A stretch of DNA of 43,754 nucleotides from a virus. Both the position numbers and the translations under genes were made by a program. This document shows positions 581-18,383 of the stretch, one piece after another; the first letter of the stretch is position 1, and every line of letters begins with the position of its first letter. The notes under the pieces are model-generated. The model searched no databases. It was given only the letters and a program-made list of their open reading frames with translations, and was not told where the DNA came from. The DNA is taken from IMG/VR virus record IMGVR_UViG_3300025674_004051, positions 1-43,754 of that record, one strand, 5' to 3'.

Positions 581-1267
581 ATGGGCGCGTCAAGATTTTT
601 AAATAACGAAGGTATTTGGATCGCTCGAGGCGAAGTCACAAATACATCTCACATCAATAAGTTTGGTTTCACTGGTACAGATGTCAACGGTACTGCGACA
701 GTGTACGATGCGAATGGAACTACAGCATTGTATCCTTATCCTGCGGATGATGTTGTGTCGATTACGTCTTCCGCAAACTCTGGAGCCGCAGTAGAAATTC
801 AGGGTCTTGATGCAAATTATAATCTCGTGACTGAGAACATCAACATTGGTTCTACAGGATCGGTCACATTCTCTCGTGTATTTCGTGCACGAATGATTGA
901 TACTCTGAACACTGCCAATGTGGTGATCAATGTTGGAGGTAACCTTGCCGCAACGATTCTCGCAAATAACGGTCAGACACTCATGGCTGTATACACGGTT
1001 CCTGCCGATAAGACTGCATACCTTGTCAAGTTTCAGGGAAGTATGGACAAGTCAAATGCATCGGTAAAGTTCAAGTTGTTCTCAAGACCATCGGGTGGTA
1101 CATTTAACCTCAAGGGTCAGTGGGGAACTCAGGGTGGTAACTCAGTCAACTACGACTATCCAGTGCCGTTAGAGTTTACAGAAAAGACTGATATTAAAAT
1201 TGATGTCACGACGGGTGCCGCAGTAGGTTGTGGTGCAATCTTTGATCTGGTATTGGTAGACAAGTAA
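581..1267 (+). CDS. Virion structural protein
   Basis: A 228-residue protein starting at ATG 581 behind a strong GGAGG. It is dominated by alternating hydrophobic and Thr/Ser/Asn/Gly residues, giving a predicted all-beta fold: motifs such as FTGTDVNGTATVYDANG and IFDLVLVDK at the end look like strands of a virion decoration or tail-associated protein. No enzyme motif, signal peptide or membrane segment is visible. It follows a partial protein of similar composition and ends with a 1-bp overlap (TAATG) with the ligase-like gene. The product is assigned by composition and context only. Confidence 0.6.
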   Translation: MGASRFLNNEGIWIARGEVTNTSHINKFGFTGTDVNGTATVYDANGTTALYPYPADDVVSITSSANSGAAVEIQGLDANYNLVTENINIGSTGSVTFSRVFRARMIDTLNTANVVINVGGNLAATILANNGQTLMAVYTVPADKTAYLVKFQGSMDKSNASVKFKLFSRPSGGTFNLKGQWGTQGGNSVNYDYPVPLEFTEKTDIKIDVTTGAAVGCGAIFDLVLVDK

Positions 1268-2487
1268 TGGAATTCCTAGACTTCATCACAGAACAGAAGA
1301 ACACTCATATGACCCATATTGAGGATAAGGTTCTCTATGGCGGTGTGAACGGTACACGACAGGCCATCAATGCACTACGTGAGTTGCGTAACATGTTGGC
1401 GGGTAAGAAAGAGGCCGGAGTCTCCGTGAAGTGGGATGGTGCGCCTGCGATCTTTGCAGGTATCGATCCCCGTGATGGAGAGTTCTTTGTTGCCAAGAAA
1501 GGTATCTTCAACAAGAACCCCAAGGTCTACAAGACTGCCTCAGAAGTAGATGCAGACACGTCGGGTGACCTTGCAATGAAACTCAAGGACGCTCTTAGGT
1601 ATCTACCAGATCTTGGAATCAAAGGTGTCATACAGGGCGACTTCTTGTTTGGTCGCGGTGATCTAGGAACTAAGACAATCGATGGACAGACCTATACCAC
1701 ATTCCATCCCAACACAATCGTCTATGCGATACCCAAGGGACAAGATGCGGAAGTCAAGTCTGCAAAGATCGGTATCGTATGGCACACTACTTACACGGGT
1801 CGATCGTTTGAAACCATGAAGGCATCATACGGTGTGAACGTTTCAGGCCTGAAGAAATCCAAGAACGTGTGGTCTCAGGATGCCATGTTACGTGACGTTC
1901 GAGGCGCTACCATGTCATCAAGAGAAACGGAGAATGTCAATGCAATTCTTTCAGAAATTGGAACATTATTTAACGCTATATCTGGATCTACTTTACGTGA
2001 ACTCGAGCAGAACCAATCCTTGGCTCAGCATATCGAACAGTTCAACAACACCTACGTGCGAAAGGGACAACGAATCAAAGACCCCAAGCAACACGCTCGT
2101 AGACTGATCACTTGGATCAAGTCTAAGTATCTAAAAGAAATATCCGCACGAAAAACTCCAAAGGGTAAACAGGGGCAACGTGATAAGATGAATGCGCTGT
2201 TGGATTTTTTCAGTACGAAGAATCTACAAAATCTAGAAAAAATGTTTCATTTACAAAAATTAATCGTAGATGCAAAATTAATTCTTATAAATAATCTTAA
2301 CAAGATCGGTTCTCTTGAAACTTTTGTGAAGACTAGCAAGGGATACAAGACAACTGGTCAAGAAGGTTATGTAGCAATTGACACGCTAGGTGGTGACGCG
2401 GTGAAACTGGTTGATCGTATGGAGTTTTCCTACAACAACTTTTCACCCGATATTTTGAAGGGATGGCAGAAACCAAGTAGGAGATAG
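1267..2487 (+). CDS. Ligase-like nucleotidyltransferase with N-terminal tag
   Basis: A 406-residue protein. It begins MEFLDFITEQ, like a capsid-targeting peptide. Around residues 55-60 it has V-K-W-D-G-A-P-A, matching motif I (K-x-D-G) of the covalent nucleotidyltransferase (DNA/RNA ligase) superfamily; F-F-V-A-K-K-G follows near 75, G-D-F-L-F near 125 fits motif III, and near the C-terminus E-G-Y-V then K-L-V-D-R near 370-390 fit motifs IV and V. About 170 mostly helical residues are inserted between motifs III and IV. I recall similar proteins as a domain of unknown function in marine T4-like phages. Ligase activity is inferred from motifs; the substrate is unknown. It overlaps its upstream gene by 1 bp. 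Confidence 0.55.
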   Translation: MEFLDFITEQKNTHMTHIEDKVLYGGVNGTRQAINALRELRNMLAGKKEAGVSVKWDGAPAIFAGIDPRDGEFFVAKKGIFNKNPKVYKTASEVDADTSGDLAMKLKDALRYLPDLGIKGVIQGDFLFGRGDLGTKTIDGQTYTTFHPNTIVYAIPKGQDAEVKSAKIGIVWHTTYTGRSFETMKASYGVNVSGLKKSKNVWSQDAMLRDVRGATMSSRETENVNAILSEIGTLFNAISGSTLRELEQNQSLAQHIEQFNNTYVRKGQRIKDPKQHARRLITWIKSKYLKEISARKTPKGKQGQRDKMNALLDFFSTKNLQNLEKMFHLQKLIVDAKLILINNLNKIGSLETFVKTSKGYKTTGQEGYVAIDTLGGDAVKLVDRMEFSYNNFSPDILKGWQKPSRR

Positions 2488-2914: not shown

Positions 2915-4417
2915 TTGAGTAACGTACCAACTTTTAAACGATATCTGGTTGAGGAGACTAAAGAAGTCTTCTTCACCTTTGGTCGTATGAATCCCCCTAC
3001 GATAGGCCATGGCAAGTTAATGAATGTCATGTCCACCAAGGCGGGATCGAACGCATACAAGGTCTACTTGTCTCAGTCGCAAGACGCACGTAAGAACCCC
3101 TTGACCTACGATCAGAAAATCAAGCACGCTCGTAAAATGTTTCCAAAACATGCTAGATCAATTATCAAGGACAAGAAACTACGTAATGTCTTTGAGGTTG
3201 CATCGTCACTCTACGATCAAGGATTCAATCGAGTCACAATGGTTGTGGGTGCAGATCGTATTACAGAGTTTAAAACCCTTTTAGAAAAGTACAACGGTGT
3301 TAAAGGCCGTCACGGTTTCTATAACTTTGAGAAGATTAACATCGTCTCTGCTGGTGACCGTGATCCAGATTCTGAAGGCGTAGAAGGCATGTCTGCATCG
3401 AAACAACGTGAGAATGCATCCAAGAATGATTTCACAACATTCTCACAAGGTGTGCCCCGAACAATGTCCAATCCAGACACCAAGAAGTTGTTCAATGACG
3501 TGCGTAGAGGAATGGGTCTCAAAGAGACAAAAGAATTCAAGAACAAAGTATCATTGGAGTCAGTTGGTGAAGTACGTGAAAGATATATTGAAGGAGATCT
3601 TTTCAATGAAGGAGATCGGGTCAGAACAAAAGCTGGCCGTACAGGGAGCATTCATCGCCTTGGGAGCAATTACGTTATCGTTGCTCTGGATGAGGGCCGT
3701 ATTTCTCGCCATTGGTTAGAAGATGTAGAACTTGTCGAAGACACAATGGACGACATCAAGAGATTCTTCTCACGTCATAAAGACAGGGCGAAGTACGAGA
3801 AGGCAGTACGTCTCTTTTTGGACATGCGTCGTAAACAGCCTGGTCAGTCCAACAAATTGTTGCACAAGGTCGCACAGATGACGAACCTTGACATCCGCAC
3901 CATCGATAAGACGCTACGTGACATGGTCAAGATGGGTGCAATGCCAAAACATCTACTCAACTATCCTTCATTACAACGTGAGGGTGCACTGACCGCAGAA
4001 CGTGATCACAAACCCGCACCTGAGTGGGGTACGCCTGCGTCGACTAAGAAAGCGAAAAAGATGACTCCCAACGAGGCAAAGGCCGCAGACGAAGTTGACA
4101 ATGCACGAAAGGTTATTGATCGTGAACAGGAAAGAGACAAAGAAAAGTTTACCTCAATGATCAAACGTGCACGTCTTGCTCGCGCTCGACGTAAGAACCG
4201 TGAAGACGATGTCACAACAGAAGCATGTGGTGACAAGATGAATGGTGTCAAGTTCAATCCAAAAGATATGGCAACGTTTCGAAAAAGAAACACTGAGGGT
4301 GCGAAGAACCCCGTTGCAAAGAACATGAACAAGTTTAACAAACCCGCAACGCACAAGGATAAAAAGAAAGATGCGAAGCGTGGATACCAGAAACACAAGG
4401 GTAATTTAGATGGCTAG
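2915..4417 (+). CDS. Cytidylyltransferase-like protein with N-terminal tag
   Basis: I choose TTG 2915 (AGAGGGTAAT just upstream); an ATG at 2876 lacks a ribosome site, and longer versions run deep into the previous gene. The 500-residue product starts SNVPTFKRYLVEE, a tag-like peptide, followed by F-F-T-F-G-R-M-N-P-P-T-I-G-H, the T/H-x-G-H signature of the nucleotidyltransferase alpha/beta-phosphodiesterase superfamily (NMN or phosphopantetheine adenylyltransferases), V-G-A-D-R near 110, and G-M-S-A-S-K near 160 as the second (S/T-A-S) signature. A small beta module follows near 225-290 (GDRVRTKAGRTGSIH, KOW-like), then basic helical segments rich in Lys/Arg. The substrate cannot be told; NAD or CoA related or a modified sugar are all possible. 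Confidence 0.55.
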   Translation: MSNVPTFKRYLVEETKEVFFTFGRMNPPTIGHGKLMNVMSTKAGSNAYKVYLSQSQDARKNPLTYDQKIKHARKMFPKHARSIIKDKKLRNVFEVASSLYDQGFNRVTMVVGADRITEFKTLLEKYNGVKGRHGFYNFEKINIVSAGDRDPDSEGVEGMSASKQRENASKNDFTTFSQGVPRTMSNPDTKKLFNDVRRGMGLKETKEFKNKVSLESVGEVRERYIEGDLFNEGDRVRTKAGRTGSIHRLGSNYVIVALDEGRISRHWLEDVELVEDTMDDIKRFFSRHKDRAKYEKAVRLFLDMRRKQPGQSNKLLHKVAQMTNLDIRTIDKTLRDMVKMGAMPKHLLNYPSLQREGALTAERDHKPAPEWGTPASTKKAKKMTPNEAKAADEVDNARKVIDREQERDKEKFTSMIKRARLARARRKNREDDVTTEACGDKMNGVKFNPKDMATFRKRNTEGAKNPVAKNMNKFNKPATHKDKKKDAKRGYQKHKGNLDG

Positions 4418-6215
4418 GGATTACAAGAAAGAATATGCCAACTATCACTCGCGCCCCGATCAGATTAAGAGACGTGCCGCTCGTAATGCGGCACGTCGTG
4501 CAATGAGTGGTCGGAAAGAACTGACTGACGAAAAAGATGTGCATCACAAGGATAACAACCCGATGAACAACGACAAGTCCAATCTGTCGATTGTCACCAA
4601 ACACTACAACCGTCGTGAACCACGACTCCGCGTAGAAGATCTGCGTAAGTGGTTCGGTAAGGGCAAGAAAGGTGATTGGGTTCGAGTCGGCACCGATGGT
4701 GAGATCAAAGGTGATTGTGCACGAGAACCGGGCGAAGGTAAACCCAAGTGTATGCCTCGTTCAAAGGCACATTCAATGGACAAGAAGGATCGTGCATCTT
4801 CAGCACGACGTAAGAGAAGAGCAGATCCAAGTGTGGATAGGCCTGGGACTGGGAACAAACCCATCATGGTAAAGACTGACAAAAAGGAATCAGTGATGCA
4901 CGAAGACGTTAACATGAAAAATGTCGACAAGCTCAAGGCCGCTGCAAGAGACTTTGGTAAAAACAGAGACATAAACTCCAAGTCAATCGAAGATGCATTG
5001 ATGACGATTGTGCAGTCAATGAGGGTTTTGGACAAAAGCACTTCTGGACGAGCTGATGTCAAACACGAAAAAATTATTAGTAAACAAATAGTTCGAATCA
5101 ATAACATCATCAACAAAACTAATTATGGCAAAACGGGTCAATCAGAAGAAGGTAAAGAGATAGTAAAAATTCTCAACAAACACAAACTCAATGGCCCAAG
5201 AGGGTTCCACAAAGTAATTTACGAAGGGGTAGAAATGAACGAAGCGTCGAAGGTTCCCGCAGGGATGAAATTCATTGCTTCCTATGTTTACAAGGATGCG
5301 AATGGTAAAGATCACACTCACCGTCATCTCCGCAAAGGCACTAAGATGACTGACCCTGTTGTTGTTTACATTGACGATAAAGAATGGAAGACTTTTCAAT
5401 CATTTACCAAGGCAAAGCAAGCTGCCATCAGTCACATCAAGAGTATGAAAGAGTCAGTAGAAATGAACGATGATGGTTGGGTTGTAGTTGGAAAGGGTAG
5501 AAAGCCCGTTCGGTTTTTGAAGAATCCCAAAAATAATAAAGCACCTCGCAACTGGCAAAAATCTTCTGACGAAACAGAAGTAATACGAGTGAGTAAAGCC
5601 AAGCAGATGGGTATAATTAAGAAAGAGTCAGTCGATCTCGAAGAAGAGAACAAGATCTTCTTTGTAAAGGTAGGTGACGGTCGTGATTCTATGACTGTCA
5701 AAACCAAGGCAAGAAACAGTCGTGAAGCATTGAAGAAGATGCGATCTGAACATCCAAAATCTAGGGTTTCATTAGACATTAATCAGAAACAAGGTCAACC
5801 TGCTGGTGCACTTGAATCAGTCGATCTCGAAGAGAAGAATGTACCAACAAACCCCGCACTTTGGGCGAAGATGAAGGCACAAGCAAAAGCAAAATTCGAT
5901 GTCTATCCCTCAGCATACGCAAACGGATGGGCTGCAAAGAAATACAAGGCCGCCGGTGGTGGTTGGAAAACTACTAAGGAGAGTACGGAAATGAAATCAT
6001 TCTGGGACATTCGTGAGTCCGTTGAAATGAACGAAGAGTTTGTAGTCAAGTACGCAAAGAACAAGCGCGGACCAATCTACCAGACTAAGTTTAAGACCCA
6101 ACCAGAAGCTGAGAAGTTCCTCGCTCAGAAGAGAAAGGAAGGTATGAACGGTATCGTCTCTAAGGCAGGTAAACCTGTTTCTATGCAGAAGATGAAAGAC
6201 TTGCAGAAGTCATGA
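4410..6215 (+). CDS. HNH-like modular repeat protein (possible polyprotein)
   Basis: A 601-residue basic protein overlapping the previous gene by 8 bp. Residues about 40-75 contain D-V-H-H-K-D-N-N-P-M-N-N and N-L-S-I-V-T-K-H-Y-N, an HNH endonuclease-like signature. Residues about 75-155 hold a basic Gly/Cys/Pro module (W-V-R-V-G-T-D-G-E-I-K-G then C-M-P-R-S-K-A) that I recall as a small domain of unknown function in phages. After that, short modules of about 60-110 residues are separated by near-identical linkers: ESVMHED, EGVEMNE, ESVEMND, ESVDLEE, ESVDLEE, and MKSFWDIRE-SVEMNEE. The last modules include N-P-A-L-W-A-K-M-K-A-Q-A-K. The linkers end in Glu like prohead-protease sites, so cleavage into separate peptides is inferred. 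Confidence 0.55.
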   Translation: MARDYKKEYANYHSRPDQIKRRAARNAARRAMSGRKELTDEKDVHHKDNNPMNNDKSNLSIVTKHYNRREPRLRVEDLRKWFGKGKKGDWVRVGTDGEIKGDCAREPGEGKPKCMPRSKAHSMDKKDRASSARRKRRADPSVDRPGTGNKPIMVKTDKKESVMHEDVNMKNVDKLKAAARDFGKNRDINSKSIEDALMTIVQSMRVLDKSTSGRADVKHEKIISKQIVRINNIINKTNYGKTGQSEEGKEIVKILNKHKLNGPRGFHKVIYEGVEMNEASKVPAGMKFIASYVYKDANGKDHTHRHLRKGTKMTDPVVVYIDDKEWKTFQSFTKAKQAAISHIKSMKESVEMNDDGWVVVGKGRKPVRFLKNPKNNKAPRNWQKSSDETEVIRVSKAKQMGIIKKESVDLEEENKIFFVKVGDGRDSMTVKTKARNSREALKKMRSEHPKSRVSLDINQKQGQPAGALESVDLEEKNVPTNPALWAKMKAQAKAKFDVYPSAYANGWAAKKYKAAGGGWKTTKESTEMKSFWDIRESVEMNEEFVVKYAKNKRGPIYQTKFKTQPEAEKFLAQKRKEGMNGIVSKAGKPVSMQKMKDLQKS

Positions 6216-6367
6216 AAACCTTTCGAGACATTCGAGAAAAGAAACTCACACCTGCTGAGTTGAAGAAGAGAGAGAAGATCGCAAAGGCAATCGAACGGGA
6301 CAATCCGGATTATCCAATGGCAAAGAAGATGGCCATTGCGACTGCGACTGCAAAGAAATCCGCATAA
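6212..6367 (+). CDS. Small basic tagged protein (51 aa)
   Basis: Starts in the ATGA overlap with the modular repeat gene. It reads MKTFRDIREKKLTPAE, the same type of start as MKSFWDIRE inside the preceding protein, then a Lys/Ala-rich helical stretch: K-R-E-K-I-A-K-A-I-E-R-D-N-P and M-A-K-K-M-A-I-A-T-A-T-A-K-K. I recall this last segment from many marine phage proteins, often fused to others. It may be one free-standing module of the preceding polyprotein. No enzymatic motif is present; a packaged peptide role is inferred. Confidence 0.55.
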   Translation: MKTFRDIREKKLTPAELKKREKIAKAIERDNPDYPMAKKMAIATATAKKSA

Positions 6368-6368
6368 G

Positions 6369-6376
6369 TATAAATA
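6369..6376 (+). promoter_or_regulatory. T4-type late promoter element TATAAATA
   Basis: Exact match to the T4 late -10 element TATAAATA. The following ATG (6382) is only 5 bp downstream, so a transcript started at the usual distance would be nearly leaderless for that gene, or would serve the gene after it. An exact 8-mer also occurs by chance at a rate of about one or two per window of this composition. Confidence 0.35.
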
Positions 6377-6381
6377 AACCT

Positions 6382-6651
6382 ATGAAAAGTTTTAAACAAC
6401 ATTGCAACGAAGCGACTTATCAGGGGAAGAAAGTTCCTCTGAACAAACCCATGCCAGGCGATGTGAAGAAGTCTAAAGTTTATGTTGATCCTGACGGGGA
6501 TGGAAAAGCAAAGAAAGTGAACTTTGGTGATAAAAATATGACGATCAAGAAGAGTAATCCTGCTCGTCGTAAATCATTCAGGGCGAGACACAACTGCGAC
6601 AATCCTGGCCCCAAGGACAAAGCACGCTATTGGTCGTGTAAGGCATGGTAA
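6382..6651 (+). CDS. Conserved phage protein with N-terminal tag and DxDGDG loop
   Basis: An 89-residue protein. It begins MKSFKQHCNEATYQG, where F-K-Q-H-C-N-E then A closely fits the T4 prohead-protease rule (cleavage after Glu, small residue next). Residues about 36-50 read V-D-P-D-G-D-G-K-A-K-K, an acidic EF-hand-like loop. The C-terminus has R-A-R-H-N-C-D-N-P-G-P-K and ends Y-W-S-C-K-A-W, with two Cys that could pair or bind metal. I recall this family as widespread and strongly conserved in marine T4-like phages, function unknown. It sits behind a TATAAATA element. Confidence 0.6.
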   Translation: MKSFKQHCNEATYQGKKVPLNKPMPGDVKKSKVYVDPDGDGKAKKVNFGDKNMTIKKSNPARRKSFRARHNCDNPGPKDKARYWSCKAW

Positions 6652-12288: not shown

Positions 12289-12317
12289 TTGATTAATACC
12301 ACTACATGTGGTATACT
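12289..12317 (+). promoter_or_regulatory. Sigma70-type promoter of the nrd genes, with palindrome
   Basis: TTGATT (12289-12294), 17-bp spacer, TATACT (12312-12317), 29 bp before ATG 12346. A perfect inverted repeat, ATACCAC-TACAT-GTGGTAT (12296-12314), fills the spacer and overlaps the -10 box, a classic place for an operator. It does not match the NrdR box as I remember it. Confidence 0.65.
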
Positions 12318-12345
12318 TTCATCTCATCAACACAAGGTAACAATA

Positions 12346-14316
12346 ATGTCAGTGAAAATTGATAAGTCCCGTGACGCTCTATTAAAAGACTATGCAGTTG
12401 GGATGTTAAAAGATTTCTATCTCAATGATTATGAAGACTCCCCCCAAGAAGGTTACCGTCGTGCCGCGACTGCATGGTCTAACGGCGACGAAGAACTCGC
12501 ACAAAGGTTGTACGACTATGTCTCAAAGAAATGGTTCATGTTCGCCTCGCCCGTCCTTAGTAACGCACCGAACGGTCATGGAAAGGGCAAGGGGATGCCG
12601 ATCTCGTGCTTTCTTACGTATGTCCCTGATACTCTTGAGGGCCTTATTGATCATACTTCTGAGTTGCGCTGGCTTAGCGTTTATGGTGGTGGCGTCGGTG
12701 GTCACTGGAGTGATGTTCGCACAGTTTCCGATGTTGCTCCAGGCCCTATCCCATTCCTTCATACTGTAGACGCAGACATGATTGCCTATCGTCAAGGTAG
12801 GACACGTAAAGGATCATATGCGGCGTACATGGATGTGTCGCACCCCGACATCATCGAGTTCTTGAACATGCGTATTCCCACGGGTGACGTGCAACGCAAA
12901 GCACTCAACCTACACAACGCAATCAACATCACCGATGAGTTCATGCAGTGTGTCAAATACGGCGACTTCTTTGATTTGCGTGACCCCAAAGATGGATCAG
13001 TCAAAGACTCTGTTGATGCACGAAAACTATGGGAAAGAATTATTGAGGTGAGGTTCCGTACAGGTGAACCCTACCTAAACTTTATTGACACAGCGAACAA
13101 TGCGTTACCTCAACCTCTCAAGGATCTGGGCCTACGCATCAACGGTTCTAATCTGTGCAATGAAATCCACCTACCCACGAGTGCGGAACGTACTGCGGTT
13201 TGTTGCCTTTCGTCTCTAAACTTGGAGTATTATGATGAATGGAAGGATACAACTATTGTCGGGGATCTTATTAGGATGCTTGATAACGTATTGCAGTACT
13301 TCATTGACAACGCACCTGACACAGTCTCCCGAGCAAAGTTCAGTGCAGAACGAGAACGGTCAATTGGTTTGGGAGCAATGGGTTTCCATTCCCTCTTACA
13401 AAAACACGGAGTTGCTTGGGAGTCTGACAAAGCAAGGGAAATCAACAGTGTTGTGTTCAGCCAAATCAATAGGGACGCAGTTGCAGAATCCGAACGCCTT
13501 GCCGAAGAACGAGGAGAGTATCCCGATGGCGTGGGTTCAGGTCGGAGAAACTCGCATCTTCTTGCTATTGCCCCCAACGCTTCATCCGGTGTTATACTGT
13601 CTACGTCCCCAAGCATCGAACCCTCAAAAGCGAATGCCTACACCCACCGAACAAGAGCAGGTAGCTTCCTCGTAAAGAATCCCTACCTTGAAGACTTGCT
13701 AGAAGAGAAGGGTGAGAACAACGAGAGTACATGGACATCGATCATTACCAACAAGGGTTCGGTACAACATCTACCGTTCCTCAACGAAGGTGAGAAGGCC
13801 ATATTCAAGACTGCACAAGAACTTGATCAGATGTGGTTGGTCACTCATTCCGCAGACCGTCAACCCTATATCTGTCAAGGTCAGTCGGTCAATCTGTTCT
13901 TCCCTGCTGGCGCACAGAAGTCATATGTGAACAAGGTGCATCTTGCTGCGTGGTCGAAAGGTCTCAAGGGTCTATACTATCTCCGTACCGAAGCAAAGTC
14001 TCGTGCGGAGAACGTGAGTGAGAAGGTCGAACGAGTTGCGTTACAGGATGATCAACGTAGCATAGTTTATTCTAAAAAGAATTGTCCTTTCTGTGCCATG
14101 GCCATGGAAGAACTCAAGTTGCGTGGCATACCTTTTGACAAGGTTGATCTCGAAGAAATTGGCAAAACTGCCGCAGAAGTAACAGGTCGAAAGGTAAATA
14201 CAGTACCACAAATTTATATTGAAGGTGAGTATGTGGGTGGTTATGATGACCTAATGGCAAAACTAAACAATACTCATGTCGAAGAATCCGAAGAATGCAG
14301 GGCTTGCGAGGGGTAA
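12346..14316 (+). CDS. nrdA: Ribonucleotide reductase large subunit with glutaredoxin domain
   Basis: I use ATG 12346 (AAGGTAACAATA upstream); the TTG at 12289 is part of the promoter. The 656-residue protein carries class I motifs: M-P-I-S-C (substrate-site Cys), N-L-C-N-E (the N-x-C-x-E radical site), a second Cys in A-V-C-C-L-S-S, A-P-N-A-S-S-G, and Y-Y in G-L-Y-Y-L-R-T for radical transfer. There is no N-terminal ATP-cone, so allosteric activity control is probably absent. Residues about 572-640 are a glutaredoxin domain with C580-P-F-C583 and T-V-P-Q-I-Y-I. The C-terminal Cys pair (C651-R-A-C654) comes after it. The glutaredoxin part likely reduces the C-terminal Cys arm. Confidence 0.92.
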   Translation: MSVKIDKSRDALLKDYAVGMLKDFYLNDYEDSPQEGYRRAATAWSNGDEELAQRLYDYVSKKWFMFASPVLSNAPNGHGKGKGMPISCFLTYVPDTLEGLIDHTSELRWLSVYGGGVGGHWSDVRTVSDVAPGPIPFLHTVDADMIAYRQGRTRKGSYAAYMDVSHPDIIEFLNMRIPTGDVQRKALNLHNAINITDEFMQCVKYGDFFDLRDPKDGSVKDSVDARKLWERIIEVRFRTGEPYLNFIDTANNALPQPLKDLGLRINGSNLCNEIHLPTSAERTAVCCLSSLNLEYYDEWKDTTIVGDLIRMLDNVLQYFIDNAPDTVSRAKFSAERERSIGLGAMGFHSLLQKHGVAWESDKAREINSVVFSQINRDAVAESERLAEERGEYPDGVGSGRRNSHLLAIAPNASSGVILSTSPSIEPSKANAYTHRTRAGSFLVKNPYLEDLLEEKGENNESTWTSIITNKGSVQHLPFLNEGEKAIFKTAQELDQMWLVTHSADRQPYICQGQSVNLFFPAGAQKSYVNKVHLAAWSKGLKGLYYLRTEAKSRAENVSEKVERVALQDDQRSIVYSKKNCPFCAMAMEELKLRGIPFDKVDLEEIGKTAAEVTGRKVNTVPQIYIEGEYVGGYDDLMAKLNNTHVEESEECRACEG

Positions 14317-17684: not shown

Positions 17685-18383
17685 GTGTTACGGTTCGAAC
17701 AATTTCTAAATGAGGGTGTCGATGACCCCGCAATCTTCAAGGCAGTATTCCTTGCAGGTGGGCCTGGTTCTGGTAAGTCATTCATCGTGGGTAGGACGGG
17801 TCTCCCATCATTGGGTTATAAGGTCATCAACTCAGACACTGCATTTGAGTTCTTACTCAATAAAAACAACATACCCATGACACCGGACGGTATTTTCTCG
17901 CCCAAGGGACAAGAGGTTCGGGGAAGAGCAAAGAAACTGACCAACATAAAACAACATCGTCTCATGGTTGGTCGTCTTGGTCTGGTTATTGATGGTACAG
18001 GCAAAGACATTGCTAAAATAAAAACCGCAAGAAAGAATCTTGAAATAGCAGGTTACGATACCGCCATGATCTTTGTCAACACAGATGAACAAACTGCACT
18101 GAAGCGTAACCGTATGCGAGCAAGAACCCTTCCTGACGATCAAGTCTCCAAGATGTGGAAAACGATTCAAAACAACATCGGTGAGTTCCAGACGATCTTT
18201 GGCAAAGAGAACATGTTGATCGTAGACAACAGTGAAGGCAAGGATTACGTCAAAGAGACACAACGGGCGTACAAAGACATTCGAAAGTTTACGACTTCAC
18301 CGATCAAGAACACTAAACACAAAAAGTATCTGGATCGTATGGTCATGCAAAAGAAACGTGACATGGATGCGATGCGTAAATAA
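17685..18383 (+). CDS. P-loop kinase (zeta-toxin/PNK-like) with N-terminal tag
   Basis: 232 residues, GTG start at 17685 with TGAGG upstream. The N-terminus MLRFEQFLNEGVDD fits the T4 rule for prohead cleavage (L-x-E before G). Walker A is G-G-P-G-S-G-K-S at 25-32, then N-S-D near 50 (zeta-toxin-like Asp), V-I-D-G-T-G near 105 as Walker B-like strand, and a lid with R-N-R-M-R-A-R. This pattern fits polynucleotide or small-molecule kinases of the zeta-toxin/AAA_33 group. The C-terminus is basic. A packaged 5'-kinase is an inference; the substrate is unknown. Confidence 0.65.
   Translation: MLRFEQFLNEGVDDPAIFKAVFLAGGPGSGKSFIVGRTGLPSLGYKVINSDTAFEFLLNKNNIPMTPDGIFSPKGQEVRGRAKKLTNIKQHRLMVGRLGLVIDGTGKDIAKIKTARKNLEIAGYDTAMIFVNTDEQTALKRNRMRARTLPDDQVSKMWKTIQNNIGEFQTIFGKENMLIVDNSEGKDYVKETQRAYKDIRKFTTSPIKNTKHKKYLDRMVMQKKRDMDAMRK

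Follow-up and report, generated by a model that had tools for sequence, protein, structure and literature searches.

A 601-aa open reading frame (positions 4,410–6,215, plus strand) from a 43.7-kb fragment of a T4-like phage (43,754 nt, called here the window) consists of small domains separated by recurring acidic linkers, which raises the question of whether its product works as one protein or is cut into many. An initial annotation, made from the letters of the sequence, had proposed that the linkers end like prohead protease sites and that the gene could encode a polyprotein that is processed into internal peptides. The prohead protease of T4, gp21, cleaves after L/I-x-E (PMC9026906), a motif that we widened to [VILMF]xE for our comparisons. 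From the distribution of this motif among related phages, and from the nature of the modules and of the neighboring genes, we consider it likely that this marine T4-like phage uses the gene to make a polyprotein of head-internal cargo, which a gp21-type protease would process. Our literature search, which covered open-access papers but not subscription ones, did not turn up any account of a polyprotein of this kind.

Architecture of the Putative Polyprotein Gene

The open reading frame (ORF) overlaps the stop codon of the ORF upstream, and comprises eight modules of 46–102 aa each and six acidic linkers of the type ESV-x-[ML]-x-E, with modules 1 and 2 directly abutting, without a linker in between. 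All six linkers counted in the initial annotation could be located. The strict pattern E[SG][VT][ED][ML][NE][ED] occurs five times in the polyprotein, but neither 5,000 shuffled versions of the protein nor the 23,268 aa of the other ORFs in the window contain it. All the modules are basic (pI 9.9–10.8, net charge +7 to +11) and all the linkers are acidic (pI 4.1–5.1).

Module 1 (aa 1–74; positions 4,410–4,631, plus strand, as for all the modules and linkers below; net charge +10) is an HNH_3 endonuclease-like domain, confirming its earlier description as HNH-like: when searched alone it matched PF13392 with 26.4 bits (cut-off, 24.8), as well as phrog_4590 (8.6e-13), and it contains the HHKDN...N core and a conserved HHKDNNPMNNDKSNLSIV. 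Module 2 (aa 75–158; 4,632–4,883) belongs to the phrog_23735/phrog_3477 family and is also a module of the cyanophage T4-GC_119 proteins; a DUF6321 label for these residues was dropped, because PF19846 matches a different module of the Sf-CH8 protein. Module 7 (aa 476–521; 5,835–5,972) is a DUF5872 domain (PF19197, 29.5 bits when searched alone, with a cut-off of 27.5; phrog_27331, 2.5e-7). The annotation of the algal virus CpV-BQ1 likewise lists a DUF5872 protein (PMC12085832), and this module may be common to phages and viruses of eukaryotic algae. The other modules did not match any family of known function in Pfam or PHROGs; they are module 3 (aa 169–270; 4,914–5,219), a predicted helical bundle (pLDDT about 60–90), module 4 (aa 279–346; 5,244–5,447), module 5 (aa 355–404; 5,472–5,621), module 6 (aa 413–467; 5,646–5,810), predicted as a small beta-beta-alpha-beta domain (core pLDDT 72–86), and module 8 (aa 543–601; 6,036–6,212).

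The linkers contain candidate cut sites, marked here and below with a slash. Linker 1, KESVMHE/DVN (aa 159–168; 4,884–4,913), could be cut after E165; linker 2, YE/GVEMNE/ (aa 271–278; 5,220–5,243), after E272 and E278; linkers 4, KESVDLEE/ (aa 405–412; 5,622–5,645), and 5, LESVDLEE/ (aa 468–475; 5,811–5,834), after E412 and E475, respectively; and the double linker 6, TKESTEMKSFWDIRESVEMNE (aa 522–542; 5,973–6,035), after E536 and E542. As had been proposed, the linkers resemble prohead protease sites, being of the form hydrophobic-x-E. Linker 3, KESVEMND (aa 347–354; 5,448–5,471), however, ends in Asp (MND) and not in Glu; with Asp at P1, we would expect inefficient cutting of this linker, or use of the alternative MKE348 (MKE/S) close by. 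In T4, an Asp at leader position 10 inhibits the processing of IPIII (PMC9026906). Pfam and PHROGs scans of the whole protein and of single modules revealed no peptidase domain. The N-terminus, MARDYKKEY, is not a capsid-targeting leader, and the only leader-like stretch is internal, at aa 528–536.

Exchange of Modules Among Relatives Takes Place at the Linkers

Relatives carry the modules of the polyprotein in altered order, within other proteins, or as stand-alone genes; the same modules are present in a different number and order in relatives among L002–L016 and in G027, G035, and G036. Module 8, the last one in the window, is found after module 2 in G004, in the middle of the protein in G007 and G008, and, for both G011 and G012, on a gene apart. 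Likewise, module 4 recurs in six relatives (G001, G002, G009, G011, G012, and G027) and module 5 recurs in G036 at a different position. Alignment with relatives, which the initial annotation had called for, revealed that it is at the linkers that modules come and go and change their order; whole additional modules are found between a linker and the module that follows it in other relatives.

Modules are also shared with the flanking genes. The cytidylyltransferase-like ORF immediately upstream (2,915–4,417, plus strand; phrog_395, 1.9e-68) carries a DUF7230 module at its C-terminal end (7.6e-10), and a stretch NNPVAK...KHKG, which matches this module, opens the polyprotein in G006–G008. The 51-aa gene downstream (6,212–6,367, plus strand) had been seen as one detached module, and it indeed consists of a leader, MKTFRDIRE, and a body that forms a module within, or at the end of, longer ORFs in six relatives (L013, L014, L133, L173, L176, and L181). 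A second clade of T4-like contigs encodes HNH-bearing proteins with the same plan and other linkers (GEELEE/GK, ESEVEE/DRDY).

Additionally, there is a copy of the HNH module at L240:6001–6213, in a 121-kb contig that is binned in a Sphingobacteriales MAG and is possibly a phage contig; this is at best a hint about the host.

Putative Protease Sites Accumulate at Module Borders and Are Scarce Within Modules

We examined the starts of homologous segments shared between 130 linked ORFs for the presence of [VILMF]xE within −2 to +9 residues. The motif occurred at 47.3% of the segment starts, vs. 20.9% expected (z 16.5, n = 634), and at 52.5% of the segment ends, vs. 26.8% expected (z 14.4); boundaries were collapsed by identical context but are still related, so that the z values are upper bounds. 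Within the window clade alone, the motif was present at 56.5% of the breaks, vs. 16.7% expected (z 8.9). There was no enrichment at segment starts of [VILMF]xD (z −0.3) or of the corresponding xK (z −3.3) and xA (z −0.6) motifs, non-hydrophobic xE showed a z of +5.3, and control ORFs from the same phages had no border enrichment (21.5%, vs. 21.6% expected; z 0). Additionally, [VILMF]xE directly precedes module 7 in 11 of 11 distinct contexts, and the hydrophobic-x-E is kept where the same module follows differing linkers in relatives.

All eight [VILMF]xE motifs of the polyprotein are in the linkers, with none in the modules, where 4.8 were expected (P 0.005). In 68 distinct segments from the clade there were nine inside modules, vs. 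27.4 expected (z −4.0), with no depletion of xD, xK or non-hydrophobic xE; control proteins gave a z of +2.8. For the second clade, which is more distant, the depletion was weak (z −1.8), using a simple mask that many border sites escaped. The depletion inside modules is the pattern expected if the protein is a protease substrate and its pieces have to remain intact. With a cut-site motif that is enriched at module borders and absent within its modules, the protein has the makeup of a gp21 substrate, and these computations argue for the earlier proposal that it would be cut into internal peptides.

Leaders of Neighboring Genes and Head Genes of Relatives

The window contains no head genes, gp21 included, and the protease and its putative substrate are not on one contig. 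Genes from the gp21 family (PF03420) are present on nine contigs of relatives (G016, G017, G020, G026, G027, G028, G030, G031, and G032); G026 and G027 also bear a copy of module 4, with 78% identity, and G028 a cytidylyltransferase, with 73%. In relatives, position and motif point to TLEE/AAPLN, NLQE/AAPLN, QLIE/TAGN, and FLTE/TGPT as candidate sites of gp23 processing. The closest named relative by the cytidylyltransferase (62% identity) is phage C48C1, filed under Kyanoviridae, whose 156-kb genome has much the same gene order at this locus and carries genes for portal, scaffold and major head proteins, along with an annotated head maturation protease.

Several neighbors of the polyprotein begin with one type of leader, which resembles the capsid-targeting sequences of T4; we take the exact T4 leader to be MKTYQEFIAE. 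These neighbors are the 51-aa gene (MKTFRDIRE), the cytidylyltransferase-like ORF (MSNVPTFKRYLVE/E, from a presumed TTG start), a DUF6267 protein (1,267–2,487, plus strand; PF19782, 3e-103; leader MEFLDFITE/Q) and an 89-aa protein (6,382–6,651, plus strand; phrog_7595, 1.2e-12; leader MKSFKQHCNE/A). In T4 internal proteins, a leader of about 10 residues targets the protein to the head, with targeting depending mainly on residues 4 and 7 and processing on residues 8 and 10 (PMC9026906). The orthologue of the cytidylyltransferase in S-SM2, T4-LIKE GC 190, has the leader MKSFFQFLSE/A and is 41% identical to that from the window over the enzyme domain, and mass spectrometry detected the T4-GC190 group in virions of S-SM1 (PMC3037559). 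The virion data support reading the leader as a sign of head targeting at this locus, but do not extend to the polyprotein.

Other features of the window deserve mention. An AAA_33/zeta-toxin-like kinase (17,685–18,383) begins with MLRFEQFLNE/G, a kind of leader also present on the kinase relatives in G010, G027, and G036, and is a candidate head-packaged enzyme. The sequence TATAAATA, presumably the core of the T4 late promoter, is found at 6,369–6,376, directly before the gene starting at 6,382; the window contains four copies, vs. 1.3 expected, and 6 of 100 shuffles reach four. The ribonucleotide reductase alpha subunit (12,289–14,316) has an apparent C-terminal fusion to a glutaredoxin-like domain (YSKKNCPFCAMA...), as judged from its sequence only.

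A gp21-type protease could also cut the product to a different end, if the fragments were parts of the prohead core or scaffold that, like those from T4 gp22, gp67, and gp68, leave the head after cleavage. The T4 core proteins have multiple gp21 cut sites and are cut into several pieces, most of which exit the head (PMC9026906), and the internal leader of the polyprotein, MKSFWDIRE, is similar to the MKTFQSIRE that begins the ORF at the gp68 position in G028. However, they are not known as an interchangeable domain set, whereas the modules described here vary freely among close relatives, are strongly basic and lack internal sites, and one of them is HNH nuclease-like; the virion-detected T4-GC190 group, moreover, has a leader of this kind. 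A role of the fragments in the core or scaffold is therefore unlikely.

Predicted Structure

The AlphaFold model of the polyprotein has a mean pLDDT of 46.8 and resolves only modules 3 and 6, both of which end at linkers; the linkers are almost wholly in stretches with pLDDT <50. The model from the second clade has a mean pLDDT of 67.0, with 5 of 11 motifs in low-confidence stretches. These models weakly fit a location of the linkers at domain borders. Searches with the polyprotein model using Foldseek and VIA-align matched module 3 to generic helical bundles only, which does not indicate a function. A weak resemblance of module 6 to T7 gp2, an inhibitor of RNA polymerase (phrog_1307, E 0.0087, with the protein from G001; Foldseek hit 4lk0_M, rank 13, E 0.81), did not reappear with module 6 alone or in PDB sequences, and is no more than a lead.

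Acidic linkers lying in low-confidence stretches, in a protein that lacks an N-terminal targeting leader, could also be mere flexible hinges, in which case the modular protein would act inside the cell, undergo ordinary domain recombination, and never be cut. A hinge, however, does not need a fixed hydrophobic-x-Glu, versions with Asp are not enriched, and the motif is absent as a border feature in other proteins of these phages and depleted inside the modules, which makes uncut hinges decidedly improbable.

Linker DNA and a Possible Internal Start in Linker 6

The DNA of the linkers had also been described as similar, and suggestive of duplication or recombination points. The similarity is real, if modest, with a synonymous identity of 0.54 within genomes and 0.51 between genomes, vs. 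0.39 expected from codon usage; linker DNA as the driver of recombination is only weakly supported. Homogenization of the linkers at the DNA level within a genome was not supported.

Linker 6 contains, at positions 5,976–6,017, a Shine-Dalgarno-like AAGGAG (5,976–5,981) and an in-frame ATG (5,991) that opens the capsid-targeting-like sequence MKSFWDIRE/SVEMNE/. The ATG, the leader and an upstream GGA-type site are kept in seven of seven distinct polyproteins with that junction. Either the last part of the polyprotein is also made separately, with a targeting leader, or the internal start is a fossil of gene fusion; a nested gene for the last module inside the ORF is possible. The internal leader may be the sole visible route of the polyprotein into the head, and this is the chief gap in the model.

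This conservation within the ORF, together with a synonymous identity above the codon-usage expectation and with a 51-aa gene in which a single module has a start codon to itself, would agree with linkers that exist mainly at the DNA level, as recombination joints or as fossils of the ribosome-binding sites and start codons of fused leader-bearing small genes, with protease sites as a by-product, but this is scarcely credible in view of the nearly equal identity within and between genomes, of the several linkers (ESVDLEE) that have no start codon, and of the depletion of sites inside modules, which it leaves unexplained.

Comparison With Known Systems and Proposed Mechanism

A polyprotein of head-internal cargo would resemble the T4 internal proteins IPI–IPIII and Alt, which are packaged in the head, processed by gp21 and ejected, and which also constitute a poorly conserved set of small head cargo (PMC9026906). 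They have a short N-terminal leader ending in hydrophobic-x-Glu (PMC9026906), which the polyprotein itself lacks, and are encoded by one gene each, with removal of the leader, whereas here there are many domains per ORF and the sites are in between. The ejection proteins of SPN3US are likewise head cargo, and a gp21-like protease cuts them, in some cases more than once, but their extra cuts are located in propeptides and not between retained domains (PMC10052503).

Polyvalent proteins from phages and conjugative elements contain 2–15 domains per chain, for which co-delivery with the genome and separation by proteolysis were proposed (PMC5512222). The polyprotein likewise presents several disparate domains in one chain (eight modules, two of them above the Pfam cut-off); however, polyvalent proteins commonly have an embedded metallopeptidase, and none was found here, where the sites fit a separate prohead protease. 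Further counterparts are the cyanophage T4-GC_119 proteins (S-BM3, Sf-CH8), which share module 2 and, in S-BM3, also module 7, and which likewise possess hydrophobic-x-Glu joints and internal leaders of the KSFxxFxE type. They differ in having fewer modules and a gene that adjoins the terminase, and are annotated as hypothetical or as DUF6321 only.

From these patterns we infer how the product would reach the head, be cut and kept there, and finally be ejected. Late in infection, the polyprotein would enter the core of the assembling prohead alongside the neighbors with capsid-targeting-like leaders. The gp21-type serine protease of the phage would then cut after hydrophobic-x-Glu in the acidic linkers and free as many as seven or eight small domains, all basic and one of them HNH nuclease-like, which would remain with the packaged DNA and would probably be ejected into the next host. 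Recombination at the linkers could add, drop, or permute modules without harm to processing, the modules being exchangeable there because each would be a self-contained domain between cut sites. A more specific version, which we put forward tentatively, is that the gene is an array of exchangeable cassettes for injected, small, basic anti-host or DNA-binding effectors, cut by the prohead protease, with the linkers as safe joints for swaps from phage to phage and an internal start yielding the last module separately, with a leader.

If a polyprotein of head-internal cargo is indeed encoded here, this would be a phage polyprotein system cut in trans, with a logic like that of RNA viruses, that loads the head from one gene. 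Abundant marine T4-like phages would then contain a large unannotated pool of virion-delivered proteins, for which a leader together with hydrophobic-x-Glu joints that are depleted inside modules would serve as a search rule, and the role of T4-type internal proteins would become testable by module comparison.
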